Source: a bacterium
GTDB taxonomy: Bacteria > CG2-30-53-67 > CG2-30-70-394
Reading direction: 5' to 3'
Length of the DNA stretch: 18,829 bases
Assembly: GCA_024278555.1 (NCBI GenBank)
Contig: JAJRSX010000171.1
Location: 1 to 18,829 of the forward strand
The notes under the pieces are model-generated. The model was given only the letters and a program-made list of their open reading frames with translations, ran no database searches and had not been told where the DNA came from. Position numbers and translations under genes: made by a program. Of the stretch, positions 2,358 to 15,261 are shown piece after piece (the stretch's first letter is position 1; every line of letters begins with the position of its first letter).

Positions 2358-2987
2358 CTAAGGCTCGGCCGCCGCCGTCTTACCCTCTTCCGCCTTGGCC
2401 AACCCCCGGCGCAACGCGGCAACATCGGCGCCAAGCTCTTCTGCGCGGTCGGTCGCCTCCAGCGCCCTCTCTCTCTCCCCGAGGGCGAGATAGCTGGCGG
2501 CGAGGCCGCGGGCGGCATCACTGTTCTTCCCATTCATCGCCAGGGTGGCACGGAAGAGCTTGGCCGCCTGGGCGGGATTCCCCTCCCGCAGATAGAGATC
2601 GGCGAGGAGATAGAAGACCCGCTCATGCCTGCCGTACTGTTTGAGGGCGGTGATGTAGGCGGCCATCGCCTTAGCCGGCTTTTTTTGCAGCTCGTAGCAC
2701 TGCCCCTGGAGGACGAGGGCCTTGCGGCTGTACTTCGGCGAGCTGAACTCCGGGTGGTTGGTTAGGTACTGCGACTCACTGAGTGCACCATCACAGTTGT
2801 TCTCCTTCATGTACTCGGTCGCCGCCCACCAGTGGGACCAACCACGGGGTGCATCCGCGGGACGCCCGGATTTGGAGGGCAGCTTCGACCAGTCGATGGC
2901 CGCGGCGGGCAGTGAGATCAGGAGGATGACGGCACACGCCACCACCCATACGGCGGCGATCCGCCAATGCACGCGATGATCAGTCAT
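2358..2987 (-). CDS. Small TPR protein with N-terminal membrane anchor or signal peptide
   Basis: A 209-residue protein I do not recognise as a named family. The N-terminus (about residues 9-30, IAAVWVVACAVILLISLPAA) is a signal peptide or membrane anchor, so the rest is probably periplasmic. From about residue 80 the sequence shows degenerate tetratricopeptide-type helical pairs (for example the AMAAYITALKQYGRHERVFYLLADLYLREG region, then AAKLFRATLAMNGKNSDAARGLAASYLALGERERALE). Two cysteines, in NNCDGA and QGQCYE, could form a disulfide. Its ATG overlaps the end of the asparagine-synthase-like gene by 8 bp and is preceded by a GGGAG motif that lies inside a 10-bp palindrome. A scaffolding role in EPS assembly is only inference from position and fold. 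Confidence 0.8.
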   Translation of the reverse strand: MTDHRVHWRIAAVWVVACAVILLISLPAAAIDWSKLPSKSGRPADAPRGWSHWWAATEYMKENNCDGALSESQYLTNHPEFSSPKYSRKALVLQGQCYELQKKPAKAMAAYITALKQYGRHERVFYLLADLYLREGNPAQAAKLFRATLAMNGKNSDAARGLAASYLALGERERALEATDRAEELGADVAALRRGLAKAEEGKTAAAEP

Positions 2988-4758
2988 GGGGAGCTCCCGA
3001 GAGCCAGACCGCCAGGGCGAGGAAGGGCCACAACAGATCCGCGTAGTACGGCTCGCTCTCGCCTAGGTGGGCCTGGTGGAGGTGGGTGAGGAAGGAGGGC
3101 CGGACCCACTCCGCGAGCGGCGAGGTCTCGCTCTCCAGGAGGTCGCCCACCAGCGACCGCAGCCGCCCGTCGGTGCGCAGCCAGCTCGCGAAGGGGAGGC
3201 CGAAGCCGTGCTTCGACTTGGTGAGGACCTCTTGGGGGAGAAGATCTTTCATTGCATCTTTGTAGAAGGCACGGAGGCGGCCGCCTTCGAGGAGCCAGCC
3301 GGCGGGGACCCGGCCGGCGAGCTCGACCACGCCGCGGTCGAGCATCGGATAACGGACCTTCACGCCGGCGGCACCACACCCTTCGGTGACCTTCCTCAGG
3401 TCGTTATCGGCGAGGGTGAGCTGGTGGTCAAAGAGGAGCAGCCGCCCGAGCTCGCTCTCGGACTCACCGCCGCCGTAGATCTCCCGGGCGGTGGCCACGG
3501 CGCGGTGGCCGGCCACCTCCGCGAGGAGCTCCGGCTGCAGTACCTCGTCGAGGTGGCGATCGGCGTAGAGGCCGTAGGAGAGGAGACGGTCGGGGTTGGG
3601 CAGCCGCGCCCGGCGGACGTAGCGCCCCGCCTTGCCCACCAGCGGCAGCCCGCAGAAGCCGCTCGTCGACAGGGGGGCCAGGAGGGCGCGTGCCACTGAC
3701 GGTAGACGGTGGTAGCGCTGGAAGAGGTAATCGGTGCCGTACCGCTCGTTGCCGGCAAAGAGCTCGTCGCCGCCGTCGCCCGCGAGCAGGGTGGCCATCC
3801 CGGCCTCGCGGGCAAAACGGGCGCACTGGTACACGGCGATCGCGGAGCTGTTGCCGAAGGGCTCGTCGAAGGCAGTGACCACCGCCTCGATGGAGTCGGC
3901 GAGGTCGTCGGGGGTGACCACCCGCTCGTGGTGGCGGGCGCCGTAGCGTTGCGCGGAGATGCGGGCGTAGGCGCGCTCGTCGTAGCGCGCCTCGTCGAAG
4001 CCGATGGAGAAGGCGTCGCACGGGCCACACGCCGCGGCCAACCCCACCACGGTGGAGGAGTCGAGACCGCCGGAGAGGAAGCACCCCACCCGGTCGCCGG
4101 TGCCGCGCTGCCGAGCCACCGCCGAGGCGAGCCGGTCGCGTAGCTCCGCTGCCAGGGCCGAACGTGAGCCGCCGCCGTCTTCACGGTAGCGAAGCTGCCA
4201 GTACCGCTCCGGCTCACCGACTCGGTCACGACAGCCGAGGCTGTGGGCTGCACGCAGCTTGTGAATGCCGCGGAAGAAGGTGCGCGGCGCCGGGATGACG
4301 GCGAAGCTCAGGTAGTCCACCAGGGCGGCCAGGTCGACCTGGGTGTCGACGCCGGGCAGGGCCCGCAGGGGCTCGGTACGGGAGGCGAAGCAGAGGGTGT
4401 CGCCGAGGCGGGCGTAGACCAGGGGCCGGGTGCGGAAGAGGTCCACCGCCAGCTCCAGGCCGCCCCCCTGGCTCCAGCAGGCATAGGCGAAAGAGCCGTC
4501 GAGCCGGCCGGGGTCGGCCCCTCGGTGGGCCGCGAGGATCGCCGTGGCCGGGTCGGGTGATGCGCCGTCGAGGAGGAGATCCGCGTCCGCGACCACCGCT
4601 GCTCCGTCCGCCTCGGCGAGGAGGCAGCCGTCGCCCGCGGCGAGGAGCAGGCCGGGGAGCGGCCTTGCGAGACGCGCCTCGCCCACTGCCGCGCGGAAGG
4701 CGGCGGCGAGCTCCGGGGCGATCCGGCCTGGCGACCAGAGTCCGGCAAACCCCCTCAC
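2980..4758 (-). CDS. Asparagine-synthase-like amidotransferase lacking the N-terminal catalytic Cys
   Basis: A 592-residue homologue of AsnB-type enzymes. The C-terminal synthetase domain looks intact: PP-loop SGGLDSS (residues 229-235), the GDGGDELFAGNERY segment (327-340) and KHGFGLPF (516-523). It should adenylate a carboxylate and form an amide. The N-terminal class II glutaminase-like domain is degenerate: the protein starts V-R-G-F-A-G-L-W instead of the usual M-C-G-I-A-G, so Arg replaces the Cys nucleophile. Motifs corresponding to RGPD and NGEIYN are not recognisable. The GTG start lies in a GTGA overlap with the upstream glycosyltransferase stop. The longer in-frame ATG at 4866 would only add a Gly-rich stretch overlapping that gene, and adds no Cys. 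Asparagine-synthase homologues are common in XrtA loci; this one probably uses ammonia or an amine rather than glutamine (inference). Confidence 0.88.
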   Translation of the reverse strand: MRGFAGLWSPGRIAPELAAAFRAAVGEARLARPLPGLLLAAGDGCLLAEADGAAVVADADLLLDGASPDPATAILAAHRGADPGRLDGSFAYACWSQGGGLELAVDLFRTRPLVYARLGDTLCFASRTEPLRALPGVDTQVDLAALVDYLSFAVIPAPRTFFRGIHKLRAAHSLGCRDRVGEPERYWQLRYREDGGGSRSALAAELRDRLASAVARQRGTGDRVGCFLSGGLDSSTVVGLAAACGPCDAFSIGFDEARYDERAYARISAQRYGARHHERVVTPDDLADSIEAVVTAFDEPFGNSSAIAVYQCARFAREAGMATLLAGDGGDELFAGNERYGTDYLFQRYHRLPSVARALLAPLSTSGFCGLPLVGKAGRYVRRARLPNPDRLLSYGLYADRHLDEVLQPELLAEVAGHRAVATAREIYGGGESESELGRLLLFDHQLTLADNDLRKVTEGCGAAGVKVRYPMLDRGVVELAGRVPAGWLLEGGRLRAFYKDAMKDLLPQEVLTKSKHGFGLPFASWLRTDGRLRSLVGDLLESETSPLAEWVRPSFLTHLHQAHLGESEPYYADLLWPFLALAVWLSGAPHD

Positions 4759-5954
4759 GGCGCCTCCACCGCCTCTCCCGCCACCACCGCGGCCAGCGGC
4801 GCGAGGGTCTGCTCCCACCGGTAGCGACGGGCCATGTGGCGCCGCGCCGCCGCCCCCGCCGACCACGCCTTGGCCGGATCACGCAGGTAGTCGACCACCG
4901 CCCGGGCAAAGCCCTTCGCCTCCGAGGCGACCGCCAGGTGGTAGCTCGGCCGCGCGTCGATCCCCTCCAGGGCCTGGGGGGTGGCGACCACCGGCATGCC
5001 GAGGGCCAGGGCCTGGAGGAGCTTGTTCTGGACCCCGCGGGCGATCCGCAGGGGTGCCACAAAGAGGTGCGCCGCCATCAGCTCGGGGAGGACATCGGGG
5101 ACGTAGCCGGCGAGGCTCACCCCGCCGTGGCGGGCGAGGCGGCGAACCGCCGGCGCGGCGCGGCCACCGAGGACCCGGAGGGTGGCGCCGGGGAAGGCGT
5201 CACGCACCCGGGGCAGGATCTCACGGGCGAACCACACCACCGCCTCCACGTTCGGGCGGTAGTCCATCGCCCCCATGAAGCAGAGGGTCGGCTCCCGCTT
5301 CGCCGGTGACCGCCACGCGGTGTGGAGGAAGCGCTCCTCCACACCGTTGGCCACCGGAACCACCGGGAAGCCGTCGCCGACACGTGATCGAAAGAGGGCA
5401 GCCTCCGGCTCGGAGACCAGGGTGACGCAGTCGACCTGAGAGGCGATCGCCCCCTCCGCCGCCGCCACGAGGCGCGCCTCACGCCCAAAGAGCCAGCGCC
5501 GTGGACCGTGGGTCTCGGCGGCGTACTGCTCCCACTTGGCCGAGTCCACGTCCACCAGGTCCATGATGAGGCGGCGGCCGGGGCGGGCGATGAGGTAGGG
5601 CGCCATCGCCCCGGAGTAGGCGACCACCGCGCCGTACGGCCGCGCCTCCTGCCACCGGCGGGTGAGCTCGGCGAAGCGGCGGCTGTGGAAGGTGGCCAGG
5701 GAGATCGCCTCGCCGGTGGCCATGGCGCCGGCGGCGCGGGTGAGGCGCTGGTTACGGGTAAGCGGCTCGGCGTGAACCTCACGACAGACGCTGGAGAGGT
5801 CGCCGAGGTGGCGCACCCCCTCCGGGTCGTCGACAAAGCAGGCGAGATCGACCGTGTGGCGCTCTGCCAGGAAGCGGAGCTGGTGGTAGGCGCGGATCCG
5901 CTCCCCCTTGGTGGGGGGGACCGGGAGGCGGTGGGCGAGGAAGAGGATCTCCAT
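4755..5954 (-). CDS. GT4-type glycosyltransferase, XrtA/PEP-CTERM-associated (TIGR03087-like)
   Basis: A 399-residue cytoplasmic sugar transferase with a GT-B fold. The N-terminus MEILFLAHRLPVPPTKGERI is the hallmark of the sugar transferase associated with PEP-CTERM/EpsH1 systems (TIGR03087), and the length matches. The C-terminal donor-binding half shows CFMGAMDYRPNVEAVVWF (residues 225-242) and RGVQNKLLQALALGMPVV (306-323). In the latter motif many family members have Glu where this protein has Gln314. I chose the ATG at 5954: the open frame continues upstream, but that extension runs through the tRNA-like gene and does not look like protein. A 6-bp GC hairpin (5962-5976) lies just upstream of the start, and no strong Shine-Dalgarno is evident. 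Donor and acceptor sugars are unknown. Confidence 0.9.
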   Translation of the reverse strand: MEILFLAHRLPVPPTKGERIRAYHQLRFLAERHTVDLACFVDDPEGVRHLGDLSSVCREVHAEPLTRNQRLTRAAGAMATGEAISLATFHSRRFAELTRRWQEARPYGAVVAYSGAMAPYLIARPGRRLIMDLVDVDSAKWEQYAAETHGPRRWLFGREARLVAAAEGAIASQVDCVTLVSEPEAALFRSRVGDGFPVVPVANGVEERFLHTAWRSPAKREPTLCFMGAMDYRPNVEAVVWFAREILPRVRDAFPGATLRVLGGRAAPAVRRLARHGGVSLAGYVPDVLPELMAAHLFVAPLRIARGVQNKLLQALALGMPVVATPQALEGIDARPSYHLAVASEAKGFARAVVDYLRDPAKAWSAGAAARRHMARRYRWEQTLAPLAAVVAGEAVEAP

Positions 5955-6003: not shown

Positions 6004-6079
6004 TGGTAGGCGGAGCAGGAATCGAACGCTGCGGCCTCCCCGATGTGGTCGGGGTGCTCTACCACTGAGCTATCCGCCT
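6004..6079 (-). tRNA. tRNA-Val(CAC)-like gene with structural defects, encoded CCA
   Basis: A full cloverleaf can be folded on the minus strand. It has a 7-bp acceptor stem (AGGCGGA with TCCGCCT), U8-A9, a D arm with GCTC/GAGC and G18-G19, and a 5-bp anticodon stem (CCCCG/CGGGG). The rest is a 5-nt variable loop, a T loop TTCGATT, discriminator A and an encoded CCA at 6004-6006. The anticodon is CAC (6045-6047), reading the Val codon GUG. Two features are abnormal: position 33 is C (6048) instead of the near-universal U, and the T stem carries an extra C (6028) that must bulge. It lies between the FemAB and glycosyltransferase genes on the operon's strand, with no convincing promoter of its own. 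It may be a decaying tRNA, a minor isoacceptor or, less likely, a sequencing error. Confidence 0.85.
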
Positions 6080-6177
6080 GTGTCGAGTGCGAGGGTGTCA
6101 TGTTGCTTCGGTCGGTTCTACCGCCTGGGTGAGAGGGGCCGCCCCGCCAACGGGCGGTGCGGCGCTGGGGGCTGGAG

Positions 6178-7230
6178 CTACGGGATGGAGCGAATGATCC
6201 ACGGGCCGAGACGGTTGGCCACCGGAAGGGGTAGCCGCTTCCACGCCTCCACCTTGCGCCGGAAGCCGGGCGCGGTGGGGTTCACCTCCGGCCGCGGACC
6301 GCCGCCGGGCACGTGGTAGAGGTACGGCAACGGCGCCGGCTCAAACCCCCAGTGGACCTTGAAGTCGAAGGCGCCGGTGCCGCGCTTGGAGCGACCGAAG
6401 TCGAAGAGACGCACGCCGCGCTCGGCGGCAATCCGCATGAGCTGCCAGTACATGAAGTCGTTGGGGGCGAGGCGCCGGAACTCGGCAAGCGACCCGGCGT
6501 AGTACGGCAGCACCTGGTCTTTGAAGAAGAAGGTGAGCACCCCGGCCACCGGCCTTCCCTGGTGGCGGACGGTGAGACAGTGGCAGTCGTGGCCGAAGAC
6601 CTCCTGCAGGGTGCGGAACCAGCGGCGCGGGTAGACCGGGGTGCCGAGGCGGTGGACCGACTCGGCGTAGAGCGCCCACACCGCGTCGAGCTCCTGGGGA
6701 CCGGTGCGGTGGGTGAGGCCGCGCTTCGGCCCCTGGCGCACCATGCGCCGCTGCTTGCGCGGGATCTGCTTGAGGTTGGCGTCGTCGTCGCCACTGATCT
6801 GCTTGCGGAAGGTGACGTAGAGGTCGCTCCCCTCGCCGGTGAGCCCGGACGGCTCCAGGTAGCGCAGCTCCAGGTAGTCGGCGCGCCGGGTACGGGCCAG
6901 GGCCTTGGCGTGGGCATAGATGGCGGCGTGGACCTCGTCGTCCACCGCCACCGCGCCGCCGTAGACCGCGAAGGGGAGCGACACGAGGGAGTGGCCGAAG
7001 AGGCGACTCTTGAGCTCGAAGAGGGGGAGGATCCCGGCCACCTCGCCGTCGCGCTCCGCCAGCAGGTAGTGGGGGCGGTGGCCGAAGCACGACTCGACCG
7101 CCCGCCGATAGCCCCACTGGTGGAAGAAGGTGGCACCTGGGTGGTGGGCGACAAAGCGATCCCACGCCGGGCGCGCCTCCTCGCCCACCGTCTTGACGCT
7201 GCAGATCCCGGTCGCCAGCGCCTCAGCCAT
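6178..7230 (-). CDS. FemAB-like protein, XrtA/PEP-CTERM-associated (TIGR03019-like)
   Basis: A 350-residue protein of the FemAB/GNAT-fold superfamily that occurs beside the deacetylase in PEP-CTERM EPS loci. FemA/B relatives transfer amino acids from aminoacyl-tRNA; the substrate of the XrtA-linked group is not established. Seen: the first GNAT-like half with FFHQWGYRRAVESCFGHRPHYL (residues 35-56, broken by no gap) and an AGILPLFELKSRLFG segment, and the second half with the VAGVLTFFFKDQVLPYYAG region (228-246). The LFDFGRSKRGTGAFDFKVHWG segment (275-295) is highly characteristic of this group. The ATG at 7230 is chosen over an upstream one at 7287 because AGGAGG sits 6 nt before it, and it overlaps the deacetylase stop by 8 bp. 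Confidence 0.88.
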   Translation of the reverse strand: MAEALATGICSVKTVGEEARPAWDRFVAHHPGATFFHQWGYRRAVESCFGHRPHYLLAERDGEVAGILPLFELKSRLFGHSLVSLPFAVYGGAVAVDDEVHAAIYAHAKALARTRRADYLELRYLEPSGLTGEGSDLYVTFRKQISGDDDANLKQIPRKQRRMVRQGPKRGLTHRTGPQELDAVWALYAESVHRLGTPVYPRRWFRTLQEVFGHDCHCLTVRHQGRPVAGVLTFFFKDQVLPYYAGSLAEFRRLAPNDFMYWQLMRIAAERGVRLFDFGRSKRGTGAFDFKVHWGFEPAPLPYLYHVPGGGPRPEVNPTAPGFRRKVEAWKRLPLPVANRLGPWIIRSIP

Positions 7231-8086
7231 GGTCGTCCTCCTGCAGCCCGAGGACCCGGGCGGCGGTGTCGAAGCGGAACCGCTCAAGCAACCCCACGAG
7301 CCGCCCCTCCATGCGGTCGAGATTGTGGTAGTGGCGGATCCCAGTGAGCCACCCCACCCGCTGGCGCGGCTGGCCCGGGTCGATCTCCCACGGGTGGAGG
7401 TAGAGGATCGCCGGCATCCCCTCCCGCCGGTTCACCTGCGCCACCCCCCAACGGGTGAGCGCCGCGGGCAGGAGCCGCAGGTAACCGCCACCGGCCACCG
7501 GCAGGTTGCGACCGAGCAGCCGGGCGGTGGTGAGGGGGAACTCCACCAGACCGTCGCCGTCTGTGCCGCGCACCCGGTGGGGGAAGCGGGGAAAGTCGGG
7601 GATACCGTAGCGGTCGTGGTAGATGGGAAAGATGGAGGAGTCGTAGGCAAAGCCCGCCTCGTGGAGCACGTCGAGGGCCCAGAGGGAGCGGCGGGTGATG
7701 GAGTAGCTCGCCGCCCGGTAGCCGAGCACCGGCGCGCCGATGATCTCTTCGAGCACCCCCTTGGCACGCGCCACCTCGTCGCCAAAGGTCTCCGGCGTCT
7801 GGCGATAGACGAGCTCGTGGGCGTAGCCGTGGCACGCCACCTCGTGGCCGCGGTCGTGGATCTCGCGAATGAGGGCCGGCTGCTCCTCGGCCACAATCCC
7901 AAGGCAAAAGAAGGTGGCACGAACACCCCGGCCGTCGAGGAGGTCGAGGAGGTGGTGGGTGTTGGCCACCACCCGCCGCTCCATCTGCGACCACCGCCGG
8001 CGCGGGATGGCGGCGGCGAGGGCGGAGACGTGGTAGTAGTCCTCCACGTCGATGGTCAGGGCGTTGACCACCCCGCGCGCCTCCAT
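7223..8086 (-). CDS. Polysaccharide deacetylase, XrtA/PEP-CTERM-associated (TIGR03006-like)
   Basis: A 287-residue NodB-homology (CE4) deacetylase expected to remove N- or O-acetyl groups from the polysaccharide. Seen: NALTIDVEDYYHVSALA (residues 8-24), the characteristic opening of the PEP-CTERM deacetylase group, with Asp13 and Asp16 as candidate catalytic base and metal ligand. The metal motif HGYAH (86-90) supplies His86 and His90. An Arg-containing GYRAASYSI motif (122-130) and LYLHPWEID (228-236) with His231 follow. The C-terminal part corresponds to the DUF3473-like extension of this family. No signal peptide is visible, which is usual for this group. ATG 8086 follows a GGGGGAG ribosome-binding sequence; a GTG one codon upstream is possible. 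Confidence 0.92.
   Translation of the reverse strand: MEARGVVNALTIDVEDYYHVSALAAAIPRRRWSQMERRVVANTHHLLDLLDGRGVRATFFCLGIVAEEQPALIREIHDRGHEVACHGYAHELVYRQTPETFGDEVARAKGVLEEIIGAPVLGYRAASYSITRRSLWALDVLHEAGFAYDSSIFPIYHDRYGIPDFPRFPHRVRGTDGDGLVEFPLTTARLLGRNLPVAGGGYLRLLPAALTRWGVAQVNRREGMPAILYLHPWEIDPGQPRQRVGWLTGIRHYHNLDRMEGRLVGLLERFRFDTAARVLGLQEDDHG
7237..7242 (-). promoter_or_regulatory. Strong ribosome binding site of the FemAB-like gene
   Basis: A perfect AGGAGG, 6 nt before the ATG at 7230, inside the deacetylase coding region. It decides the FemAB-like start against the upstream in-frame ATG at 7287. Confidence 0.8.
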
Positions 8087-8099
8087 CACCGACTCCCCC

Positions 8100-11711: not shown

Positions 11712-13367
11712 CTAGACCCCCACCAGGGCGCGTAGCGGATAGAGACCGATTCCCTGGATCTCCAGCCACAGCACCGACCCGAAGAGTGCGATCGTCATCA
11801 CCGTCGCCATGGCAAAGGCGAGGTTCGCCCGGTGGTGACGGCGGCGATCGCCGTGCGTAACCACGGTCGGGATCCGGCCGAGGACGGTGAGCCCCACCAA
11901 CCCCTGGATCTCGTCGCTGGAGCGGATGGTGTTGTCCATCAAGTGGCGGAGGAAGCCAAAGCCGTATCCGGCCGCCACCCCCCCGCCAAGCCCCATGAGG
12001 ATGATGACCACCCGATTCGGCTTCACCGGCTTGTACGGTACGGTGGCCGGCTCAATTACCCGGATACGGCCGCCACGGTCCTGGACCTCCATCTCCTTGG
12101 TCACCCGCGCCTCCTCCAGCCGCTTCAGGAGGTTATTGTAGATTGAGCTGTTCACCGAGTAGTCGCGGCGCAGGGCGACGAGCTCCTGCTCCTTCTTCGG
12201 CACATCGAGGATCGCCTTTCCGAGACCGCTAACCTCTCGCTTGAGCTGAGCCCGCTTTGCCTCGGTCGCGGTGAACTCCGCGTCGAGCTGGGAGACCTTC
12301 TCCTTCAGGCTCAGATAGTGGGGATTGAGGATCTGCTCCCCGAGGTCGGCAAGGACATCGTCCTCCCCCGCACCGCTGCCCGCCGACGGCTCTGCCTTCG
12401 CCGCCTCCCGCAGATGATCGATCTGCGCCTGCAGGGCCACCACCGCCGGGTGGCGGTCTGTGTAGCGCAGGCGGAGCTCGTCGATCTGCGCCTGCAGCGC
12501 GGCGATCTTCGGATCCCCCTGCCCCTGGCTCGCCACCGCGCCGCTGTCAAAATCCTGCTGCGCCGAGATCCACTTCGGCTCCGACTCGAGCTGCTTGGCG
12601 TAGGTTGCCCGCTCACTCTTCAGACGCTGGAGATCGATCTCGACCTCCGCCAGATTCGCCCGCGCCTCGTCGAGACGGTTGACGTCGGCAAAGGCGGCGC
12701 GCGGCGCCACATCCGCACCGCCGCTACCTCCCTGACTCGCCGGCAGGGCCGCTCCGACGCCAAGCTCCACGAGGTTCTTCTGTTTAAACTCCCGAAGCTT
12801 GCGCTCCGACTCCTCCAGCCGCGTCCGGTAGACCTGGAGCTGCTGGTTGATGAAGTCGTACGCCTGGTGTGCATCTACCCGTTTCGCCCCGAGGTTCTCC
12901 TCCAGGAGCATGTCGGTGAGCATCGCCACCACGTCACGTGCCACCGTGGGGTCGTTGTGCTGGAAACCGATCGCAATGAGCTGGCCGCGGCCGGTGGCGC
13001 GGACCTCGGTGTGGCTGCGCATCCGGTTGAGGAGACCCTCCAGCTCCTTCGGCGTCTGCGCCTTCAGGTCGAGGTCGAGGCGACGGGCGATCTGGGTGAG
13101 GTGGTCACGGGTGAGGAGGCGCTGCTCCACGAACTTCATCTTCGAAGTAATCGACGGCGCCACCGCCATCCGCTTGGTGAGCGCCTGGAGGATCGCATCG
13201 TCCTCGACCAGGATTGTCGCCTTCGATTCGTAGATCTTCGGGCTGGTATAGGCGACCACCCCGGCGGCCACCCCGGCGACCACCGCCGCCAGGAGCACCC
13301 ACCACCGGTTGCGCACCAGGATATCGAGATAGAGTCGAAGGTCGAGCGTGTTCGCCTGGACTTGCAT
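11712..13367 (-). CDS. XrtA-system polysaccharide chain-length determinant (Wzz/GNVR, TIGR03007-like)
   Basis: A 551-residue inner-membrane polysaccharide co-polymerase that sets polymer length. Seen: first transmembrane helix at about residues 21-42 after a short cytoplasmic N-terminus, a Wzz-type beta-alpha region with PKIYESKATILVEDD, and a long periplasmic alpha-helical, coiled-coil section (about 175-400). The GNVR-type segment before the membrane contains a proline-rich PATVPYKPVKPNR (residues 440-452). A second helix (about 453-473) and a third hydrophobic helix (about 515-536) follow, the last being an addition to the classical two-helix Wzz plan. There is no kinase domain, consistent with the separate kinase gene downstream. 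The ATG has GAGGGAG 6 nt upstream and starts 21 bp after the export gene. Confidence 0.92.
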   Translation of the reverse strand: MQVQANTLDLRLYLDILVRNRWWVLLAAVVAGVAAGVVAYTSPKIYESKATILVEDDAILQALTKRMAVAPSITSKMKFVEQRLLTRDHLTQIARRLDLDLKAQTPKELEGLLNRMRSHTEVRATGRGQLIAIGFQHNDPTVARDVVAMLTDMLLEENLGAKRVDAHQAYDFINQQLQVYRTRLEESERKLREFKQKNLVELGVGAALPASQGGSGGADVAPRAAFADVNRLDEARANLAEVEIDLQRLKSERATYAKQLESEPKWISAQQDFDSGAVASQGQGDPKIAALQAQIDELRLRYTDRHPAVVALQAQIDHLREAAKAEPSAGSGAGEDDVLADLGEQILNPHYLSLKEKVSQLDAEFTATEAKRAQLKREVSGLGKAILDVPKKEQELVALRRDYSVNSSIYNNLLKRLEEARVTKEMEVQDRGGRIRVIEPATVPYKPVKPNRVVIILMGLGGGVAAGYGFGFLRHLMDNTIRSSDEIQGLVGLTVLGRIPTVVTHGDRRRHHRANLAFAMATVMTIALFGSVLWLEIQGIGLYPLRALVGV

Positions 13368-13388: not shown

Positions 13389-13967
13389 TCATGGAACGAC
13401 GATGAGATCGCCGTCCTTCAGGTCCATCACCTGGGAGAGGTCGAGCTTCTTGTAGATGTCGCGGAACTTAACCGGGATCTTCCGTGCCTTGTCCCCCTCC
13501 TTCCGCACCACGGTCACCTTGTTCATGCTCGCGTAGGGGGTAAACCAGCCGGCGTCGATGATCGCGTCGATGATGTTGATCCCCTCCCGGTACGGAATCG
13601 ACTTGGGCTGGTTCACTTCGCCGAGGACGGTGATCTTGTGGTCCTGGGCGTAGGAGGCCATCCCCGCCATCATGATGGTCACCGTGGGCTCGCGCACATA
13701 CTCCTTCAACTTGGTGGTGACCACCCGCTGGAGCTCCTCGGTGGTCATCCCCTGGACGAAGACATCCCCCACCAGGGGCATGGAGAGCTTGCCGTCGGGC
13801 CGCACCACCCCTGTCGCCCCGAGGTCCGGATTCCCCCACACGAAGACCTGCACCGAGTCGCCGATACCGATACGGTAGTCGGGTCCCGCCGCCTCCCCGT
13901 TCACCACCGCAACGGCGAGGAGCAACAGCCCCACCACCAGAATTCCGCGCGCCACCCTCGTCACCAT
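13389..13967 (-). CDS. Polysaccharide export protein, Wza-like (XrtA-system, TIGR03027-like)
   Basis: A 192-residue periplasmic/outer-membrane export protein and the first gene of the minus-strand operon. Seen: signal peptide (about residues 1-27), a Poly_export domain from DYRIGIGDSVQVFVWGNPDL (30-49) to about residue 110, and an SLBB-type domain containing ITVLGEVNQPKSIPYREGIN (118-137). It is much shorter than enteric Wza, as usual for the XrtA group. There is no lipobox cysteine: the signal ends VVNGEAAGPDY, so it may not be a lipoprotein. ATG 13967 is chosen because GGGGG lies 7 nt upstream (13975-13979). The ATG at 13973 would sit directly on that motif, and the one at 13991 lies upstream of it. 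Confidence 0.92.
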   Translation of the reverse strand: MVTRVARGILVVGLLLLAVAVVNGEAAGPDYRIGIGDSVQVFVWGNPDLGATGVVRPDGKLSMPLVGDVFVQGMTTEELQRVVTTKLKEYVREPTVTIMMAGMASYAQDHKITVLGEVNQPKSIPYREGINIIDAIIDAGWFTPYASMNKVTVVRKEGDKARKIPVKFRDIYKKLDLSQVMDLKDGDLIVVP

Positions 13968-13994
13968 GTTCATTCCCCCACGATTTGCCACGAT

Positions 13995-14007
13995 TCTCAG
14001 AATGAGA
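13995..14007. promoter_or_regulatory. Inverted repeat in the divergent gap, over the start of the TIGR03790 gene
   Basis: TCTCA-GAA-TGAGA, two perfect 5-bp arms around 3 bases, covering the ATG at 14002 and lying in the roughly 34 bp between divergent start codons. It could be an operator or a small hairpin; short repeats of this size also occur by chance. Confidence 0.3.
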
Positions 14008-15261
14008 CACTACCGATGCATTCTCCACCAACCCACCCAGGTCTGCCACCGGCTCACGGCCCTCTTTCGCTCCCCCGTTCGCTGCTGCCTGTCGATCGCC
14101 TTGGCAGCGGCCGTCTGTCTCGGGGGGGGGAACGCGAGCGCCCTGGAGCCCCGCGAGGTGGCCATCCTTGCCAATGCCGATCTCCCGGCCTCGTTAGATG
14201 TTGCTCAACGGTATCGGCAGCTCCGCCACATTCCCCAAGGAAACCTCCTCGCCCTGCCCCTGCCGAAGGGGGAGACGATCTCCCGCGAGCAGTACGTGCG
14301 ACAGATCGCCGACCCCCTGCGCGACTGGCTCGCCCGGCCGGAGCTGGCACAGATCCGCTGCCTCCTCCTGGTCTACGGCGTCCCTCTGCGAATCCGCTCG
14401 ACCTATCCCGAGTCCGAGGAGCACGACCGGGTCGAGAAGATCGACGCGCGCCTCGACCGCCTGGAGGTGGAGTCGCCCCTCGCCCCGGAGATCGAACGGC
14501 TACGCCGCCGGCGAATCGAGCTGCGCCGCCTGGGCCGCTCCGACCTCGCCGCGGTCGACTCGGAGCTCACCCTCCTGCGCATCCCGCACGCCCTGCGCGG
14601 CTGGCTCCCCAACCCCCTCTTCCAGGCCGAAATCCAGCCGCCCCAGCAGGTGCAGCTGCCGCCCGGCGGCCTGTTCACCGCCCGCCTCGACGGCCCCACC
14701 CCGGCGCTCGCCATCGCCCTTGCCGAACGCGCCATCGCCGCCGAGGCCCAGCCGCCCCGCGGCCGCATCTACATCGACGCCCGCGGCCTCACCAAGGGCA
14801 ACTACGCCCCCTTCGATGAGGCGATGCGCCGCGCCGCCAAGCTCCTGCGCCCCCTCCCCTACCCGGTCACCCTGGAGGACACCAAGCGCCTCTTCGGCCC
14901 TGGTGAGTGCCCCGACGCCCTCCTCTATTACGGCTGGTACCGCCTCCGCCACTACCGCGACGCCTTCGACTGGGCCCCCGGCGCCATCGGCGTCCACCTC
15001 GCCTCCGGCGAGGCGGTGTCGCTGCACCGGGGCGACTACTGGTGCCCGCGAATGATCGCCGACGGGGTCACCGCCACGGTCGGGCCGGTGGCCGAGCCGT
15101 ACGCCTCCGCCTTCCCCCCGGCCGACCTCTTCCTCCCACGCCTCGCCGACGGCCAGTACACCCTGGTTGAAGACTACTTCCTCACCCTCCCCCACCTCTC
15201 CTGGCGGATGGTCCTGGTGGGGGACCCGCTCTACCGGCCGTTTCTCAAGCGGCAACGGTGA
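14002..15261 (+). CDS. TIGR03790 family secreted protein of unknown function
   Basis: A 419-residue protein. Segments resemble the TIGR03790 family: VAILANADLPASLDVAQRYR near the start (residues 53-72), ISREQYVRQIADPLRDWL (93-110), LLLVYGVPLRIR (121-132), and RGRIYIDARGLTKGNYAPFD mid-protein. Near the end are YYGWYRLRHYRDAFDWAPGA and MVLVGDPLYRPF. Function of the family is unknown. A hydrophobic segment (about 28-42) ending in GNASA looks like a signal peptide, but it is preceded by an unusually long N-terminal arm. The start is therefore uncertain: ATG 14002 has no Shine-Dalgarno, and ATG 13966 would extend back to the export gene's start. A G9 run (14122-14130) lies in the signal-peptide codons. 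It diverges from the EPS operon; any link to it is only positional. Confidence 0.83.
   Translation: MRHYRCILHQPTQVCHRLTALFRSPVRCCLSIALAAAVCLGGGNASALEPREVAILANADLPASLDVAQRYRQLRHIPQGNLLALPLPKGETISREQYVRQIADPLRDWLARPELAQIRCLLLVYGVPLRIRSTYPESEEHDRVEKIDARLDRLEVESPLAPEIERLRRRRIELRRLGRSDLAAVDSELTLLRIPHALRGWLPNPLFQAEIQPPQQVQLPPGGLFTARLDGPTPALAIALAERAIAAEAQPPRGRIYIDARGLTKGNYAPFDEAMRRAAKLLRPLPYPVTLEDTKRLFGPGECPDALLYYGWYRLRHYRDAFDWAPGAIGVHLASGEAVSLHRGDYWCPRMIADGVTATVGPVAEPYASAFPPADLFLPRLADGQYTLVEDYFLTLPHLSWRMVLVGDPLYRPFLKRQR

Follow-up and report, generated by a model that had tools for sequence, protein, structure and literature searches.

Gene content of the locus

The window (the whole stretch of 18,829 nucleotides analysed here) contains TIGR03007, TIGR03006, TIGR03015, TIGR03019 and TIGR03087 genes together, and this combination identifies an XrtA/PEP-CTERM exopolysaccharide (EPS) locus. 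On the minus strand the order is TIGR03007, TIGR03015 (an ATPase according to NCBIfam), TIGR03006, TIGR03019 (FemAB), a tRNA gene, TIGR03087, and an amidotransferase of the asparagine synthase type (NCBIfam). XrtA/PEP-CTERM exopolysaccharide loci routinely encode a FemAB protein, and both the gene set and the order deacetylase-FemAB-TIGR03087 glycosyltransferase are those found in other exosortase loci of this class. Unlike the window, the other loci examined have no tRNA of this kind, apart from the relative described below. The scan of the window proteins did not reveal the exosortase gene xrtA. A 431-aa ORF without a Pfam match lies on the plus strand at 13966-15261, divergent from the EPS operon.

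The main features are as follows.

2980-4866, minus: XrtA/PEP-CTERM-type amidotransferase, asparagine synthase family (TIGR03108, 257.9 bits, below the cut-off of 816.9)
4755-5954, minus: TIGR03087 (stp1) PEP-CTERM/XrtA glycosyltransferase (NCBIfam, 395 bits)
6004-6079, minus: extra tRNA-Val(CAC)-like gene, hereafter EPS-tRNA (ARAGORN; Rfam RF00005, 52.1 bits; sister species; relative in genome G271)
6006-6004, minus: encoded CCA of the EPS-tRNA
6028, minus: extra C in the 5' strand of its T stem
6047-6045, minus: its anticodon, CAC
6048, minus: its C33
6080-6123, minus: conserved 5' leader, CGGTRGAACC..CCGAAGCRACATGACACCCTC (36/44 identical to the sister species; no sigma-70 consensus)
6178-7287, minus: FemAB-family XrtA-associated protein (TIGR03019, 421.7 bits, NCBIfam; Pfam; tandem GNAT); 7287 is where the listed ORF begins, and translation probably starts nearer 7230
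6358-6360, minus: codon of the invariant FemAB lysine equivalent to FemX Lys305 (PDB profile search, motif count)
7223-8089, minus: XrtA-system polysaccharide deacetylase (TIGR03006, 387 bits, NCBIfam)
11712-13367, minus: XrtA-system chain length determinant (TIGR03007, 418.9 bits, NCBIfam)

The tRNA gene thus lies between two co-directional EPS genes, as the initial annotation had stated, with FemAB on one side and the TIGR03087 glycosyltransferase on the other.

Structure and valine identity of the EPS-tRNA

ARAGORN called positions 6004-6079 of the minus strand as a tRNA-Val(CAC). The covariance score against RF00005, compared with a gathering score of 29, and the cloverleaf with its CCA place the gene in the tRNA family. 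The acceptor stem is a perfect 7 bp (AGGCGGA/UCCGCCU), the D arm carries G18G19, the anticodon stem has 5 bp and the V loop reads AGGCC; U8, A14, the G15-C48 pair, the UUCGAUU loop and A73 are all present. ARAGORN and Infernal/Rfam agree with the earlier description of these elements, including the encoded CCA, as intact.

The two oddities that had been pointed out from the letters alone are also real features of this DNA. The anticodon loop is ACCACAU (A32, C33, CAC, U38), and the T arm is GCAG-C-G / UUCGAUU / CCUGC, with the insertion placed at 6028 by the Infernal alignment as well. A standard elongator has U33 and an uninterrupted 5-bp T stem; the EPS-tRNA has neither. In its own genome (48 tRNAs) and in the sister genome (46), every other tRNA has U33 and a T stem that pairs in the standard register. 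The score of the EPS-tRNA ranks 46th of the 48 in its own genome, among the lowest. RNAfold predicted a cloverleaf with A32-U38 paired, leaving a 5-nt anticodon loop, and a bulged T stem; the z-score was modest (-1.9). As reported before, no promoter is visible: a simple scan found neither a sigma-70-like promoter nor a terminator, which is weak evidence in GC-rich DNA.

Normal tRNA-Val genes with anticodons GAC, UAC and CAC are all present in the window genome (G000), in the sister genome (G001) and in G271, so that the search for further tRNA-Val(CAC) and tRNA-Val(TAC) genes proposed in the initial annotation found both. The EPS-tRNA is redundant to a full translational set, as a non-proteinogenic tRNA would be. 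Bacterial valyl-tRNA synthetase (ValRS) recognises A73, G3-C70, A35 and C36, together with U4-A69 and the minor elements G20 and G45 (PMC9976931). The EPS-tRNA has A73, G3-C70, A35, C36 and G45; its 4-69 pair is C-G, the same as in the normal tRNA-Val genes of the genome, and G20 is absent. In acceptor stem, D arm, A35-C36 and A73 it is like the AGGCGGA type of tRNA-Val(UAC) in RF00005, whose normal genes in other phyla are up to 61/73 identical to it. The EPS tRNAs are unlike that type in having A32, C33 or U33, a CCCG/CGGG anticodon stem and a base inserted in the 5' T-stem strand.

Conservation in the sister species

The genus has only one other genome, that of a sister species (G001; its contig is the same as MNYW01000039.1 of MAG Nitrospirae bacterium CG2_30_70_394). 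A comparison of related genomes at the junction had been suggested, and it was informative: the sister carries the EPS-tRNA at the same place, 75/76 identical, with both C33 and the T-stem insertion kept and the lone difference in the variable part of the D loop. This copy scored 49.6 bits in a genome search and was missed by the Rfam fast filters. At fourfold-degenerate sites of the two flanking genes, 124 of 391 positions (32%) differ between the species; at that rate, the probability of 0-1 changes in 76 bases is ~1e-11. Most normal tRNA genes show 0-3 differences between the two genomes, so the EPS-tRNA evolves like a working tRNA. At the level of sequence comparison, strong purifying selection is thereby shown along its whole length, C33 and T-stem insertion being fixed. 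That the EPS-tRNA is real and conserved is well supported.

A protein-coding cause of this conservation was considered and rejected. In both species the mechanical ORF of the glycosyltransferase stays in frame across the tRNA; in the window it reaches 6101. In the resulting 49-codon extension, changes are spread evenly over the three codon positions (7, 9 and 8), and the single change in the tRNA is non-synonymous in the glycosyltransferase frame. The TIGR03087 match begins at residue 52 of the long ORF (NCBIfam). This, the 49-nt spacing from the tRNA in both species and the even codon-position changes make the ATG at 5954 most likely the real start, and we read the long ORF through the tRNA as an accident of open frame.

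The oddities had been taken as possible marks of a tRNA remnant at an old insertion junction. C33 and the inserted base would indeed harm a translational tRNA, as expected of a decaying gene or an att scar. Decay is nevertheless highly improbable, and we regard it as refuted: the sister keeps 75/76 bases including both oddities against ~32% fourfold divergence, the gene evolves as slowly as the normal tRNAs do, and no duplicated (att-like) tRNA 3' end was found in the window or the genome. No integrase was recognised in the window. A mobile or phage origin was also rejected, with no plasmid match, no exact match in IMG/VR, and one phage match that is a normal tRNA-Val.

Immediately upstream of the tRNA, the leader at 6080-6123 stands out as conserved within an otherwise divergent intergenic region (36/44 identical, versus 30/49 for the sequence downstream of the tRNA), and is possibly a promoter or a processing leader. 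Its position would suit a tRNA mimic acting as a regulator of EPS expression, either a leader that senses ValRS or the charging state, or a decoy. Some mRNA leaders, that of E. coli ThrRS among them, contain tRNA-like operators (PMC9976931). We consider such a regulator improbable: folding of the two species' sequences gave no alternative conserved structure outside the cloverleaf, and an encoded CCA and a full cloverleaf exceed what a mimic needs.

A related tRNA in a second lineage

When the 76-nt EPS-tRNA was searched against 386 genomes, the best match outside the genus was full-length, 80% identical, and located in G271, a genome of a different, small phylum. This tRNA is Val(UAC)-like, with U33 kept, a CCA that is not fully encoded, and one additional base in the 5' strand of the T stem, a placement that keeps G15-C48 and that Rfam also gives. 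At its 5' end the tRNA overlaps the stop codon of a TIGR03087 glycosyltransferase gene. The locus is again of the XrtA kind, with exosortase (xrtA), EpsI, deacetylase, FemAB and chain-length genes distributed over the contig with the tRNA and glycosyltransferase and the contig with FemAB; the contig break falls between FemAB and the glycosyltransferase/tRNA.

In a FastTree phylogeny of 40 tRNAs, the EPS tRNAs of the window, the sister and G271 form a clade with support 0.986, and among 198 tRNAs checked, A32 in a Val tRNA occurs in the EPS tRNAs only. Plain identity is less telling: the EPS tRNAs share 59/73 with each other, versus up to 61/73 with normal Val(UAC) genes of other phyla, so that common descent is likely, not proven. 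The probability that a tRNA lands by chance within 200 bp of a TIGR03087 gene is ~3e-4. The EPS-tRNA precedes the glycosyltransferase gene in the window lineage and comes after it in G271.

These arrangements bear on the idea of a tRNA-like processing element acting in cis, at which RNase P and 3' processing would divide the operon mRNA into a FemAB part and a glycosyltransferase part, or would determine how stable these are. The gene is embedded between co-directional genes, 49 nt ahead of the glycosyltransferase start in both species, the G271 tRNA overlaps a stop codon, and the acceptor and T arm retain a shape that suffices for RNase P. A pure processing site, however, does not need anticodon, V and D loops that stay unchanged (1/76), its place would hardly change from ahead of the glycosyltransferase in the window lineage to behind it in G271, and it leaves the kept Val identity elements unexplained. 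We therefore find it rather unlikely; it accounts less well for full-length conservation than a non-decoding tRNA does.

The gene could also be an ordinary second tRNA-Val(CAC) of slightly irregular shape that serves translation and raises GUG decoding. This would agree with the intact charging determinants and CCA, with the normal-tRNA-like evolution and with the U33 of the G271 relative. In some in vitro tests, moreover, decoding does not strictly depend on U33. Against this, the gene stands alone in its genome and in the sister's in lacking U33 and having an interrupted T stem, a normal Val(CAC) is already present, and translation offers no reason why such a gene sits in an EPS operon in two phyla. 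We judge a role in ordinary translation unlikely; together with the cis processing element it is the chief alternative to the reading favoured below.

The FemAB neighbour

The AlphaFold model of the window FemAB is a confident tandem GNAT fold (pLDDT 93.5), and its fifteen best PDB matches by Foldseek are all aminoacyl-tRNA-dependent enzymes (Sbb17/Sba18, FemX, FemA, MprF/A-PGS). Sequence profiles find the same enzyme group, ahead of acyl-CoA GNATs. The catalytic lysine of FemX is Lys305 (PMC12945691); in a profile alignment and motif count, it aligns with a lysine invariant in 39/39 XrtA FemAB proteins. A tandem GNAT fold nearest FemX or Sbb17, together with the catalytic lysine, places the protein in the FemABX type, and fold and lysine suggest a transferase of the aminoacyl-tRNA type. 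The FK motif that contains the lysine may be shared across the PF13480 family as a whole, and is for that reason no proof of aminoacyl-tRNA use.

FemX (Weissella, S. aureus) and the streptothricin-type Sbb17/Sba18 share with the XrtA FemAB both the tandem GNAT fold and the lysine in an FK motif. They differ in drawing on bulk cellular aminoacyl-tRNA, and we know of no tRNA gene beside them. A second, diverged FemAB of the window genome (G000:C11:21055-22041), which scores 220 bits and falls under the TIGR03019 cut-off, has no tRNA close to it.

Rarity among XrtA-type loci

We surveyed FemAB or TIGR03087 loci of >70 other genomes, ~50 of them in stretches up to 20 kb. Some 95 other FemAB or TIGR03087 (XrtA-type) loci were without such a tRNA. 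Within 1.5 kb of 56 FemAB loci, the only tRNA was an ordinary tRNA-Leu (G235); the wider stretches of the ~50 loci, mostly 10-20 kb, held only ordinary tRNAs elsewhere; and among the TIGR03087 loci scanned, G271 alone had such a tRNA besides the genus. A scan of genome contigs gave three FemAB loci only. The EPS-tRNA is thus seen in two lineages, the window genus and G271, and given the ~95 loci without one, FemAB generally works without it. In the open-access literature searched, no paper describing a tRNA within an XrtA locus was found.

Two side observations were made in other genomes. In G546, of another phylum, a small ORF lies between FemAB and the TIGR03087 glycosyltransferase (L146 2512-2946), flanked by short GGGGAGTGGGGAGT-type repeats; it resembles, by eye, the four-helix-bundle proteins of 23S rRNA intervening sequences. 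The gap at the same junction is similar in size in L145 and shorter in L151. In G004, a tRNA-Ala with anticodon AGC (L064 1938-2014) closes a Lys-Glu-Val-Asp tRNA cluster and has 2/5 T-stem pairs in the standard register.

Discussion

We propose that the XrtA/PEP-CTERM exopolysaccharide locus carries, in the EPS-tRNA, an additional tRNA gene that is functional. The reading we tentatively favour, with a probability of about 0.45, is that it is a dedicated, translation-avoiding valyl-tRNA that feeds FemAB. The tRNA would either be released from the operon mRNA by processing or be transcribed from a promoter of its own. Charging by ValRS is suggested by the retention of A73, G3-C70, A35, C36 and G45, whereas the T-stem bulge and the missing U33 suggest poor use by EF-Tu and the ribosome. 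The FemAB-type tandem-GNAT enzyme would then move valine to an exopolysaccharide or cell-envelope precursor, a transfer resembling the use of aminoacyl-tRNA by FemX and streptothricin-type enzymes. Near-unchanged in the sister and recurring in an XrtA operon of another phylum, the EPS-tRNA may well supply an amino acid to FemAB and not to the ribosome. Of the earlier interpretation, the insertion remnant falls away, while a non-decoding role with a possible link to FemAB is strengthened by the G271 relative and by the FemAB fold and lysine.

A parallel exists in S. aureus, where non-proteinogenic tRNA-Gly isoacceptors are thought to feed FemXAB (PMC4052509). There too, extra isoacceptors stand beside the normal set and are changed so as to stay out of translation, through loss of G18G19 and altered 49-65 and 51-63 pairs, T-stem pairs weak for EF-Tu (PMC4052509). 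The EPS-tRNA keeps its GG and has its T stem altered differently, by a bulge, and so does not follow the S. aureus pattern: it has a T-stem insertion and C33, belongs to the valine type, and is encoded in the same operon as the enzyme presumed to use it.

Several observations count against FemAB supply: the G271 tRNA has U33 and an incompletely encoded CCA, ~95 loci have no such tRNA and two lineages do, and in G271 FemAB and the tRNA are on different contigs. The wider proposal, that in at least two phyla XrtA loci come with a translation-diverged valyl-tRNA of their own as a dedicated FemAB donor, we hold slightly more doubtful still.

If FemAB supply is the right explanation, the co-encoded valyl-tRNA would name the likely amino acid of FemAB, valine, and the FemAB reaction would be shown to be tRNA-dependent. 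The presence of the tRNA in the locus makes the function of FemAB directly testable. The locus would then be a case of a pathway-dedicated tRNA inside its own operon, in which the pathway brings its tRNA along.
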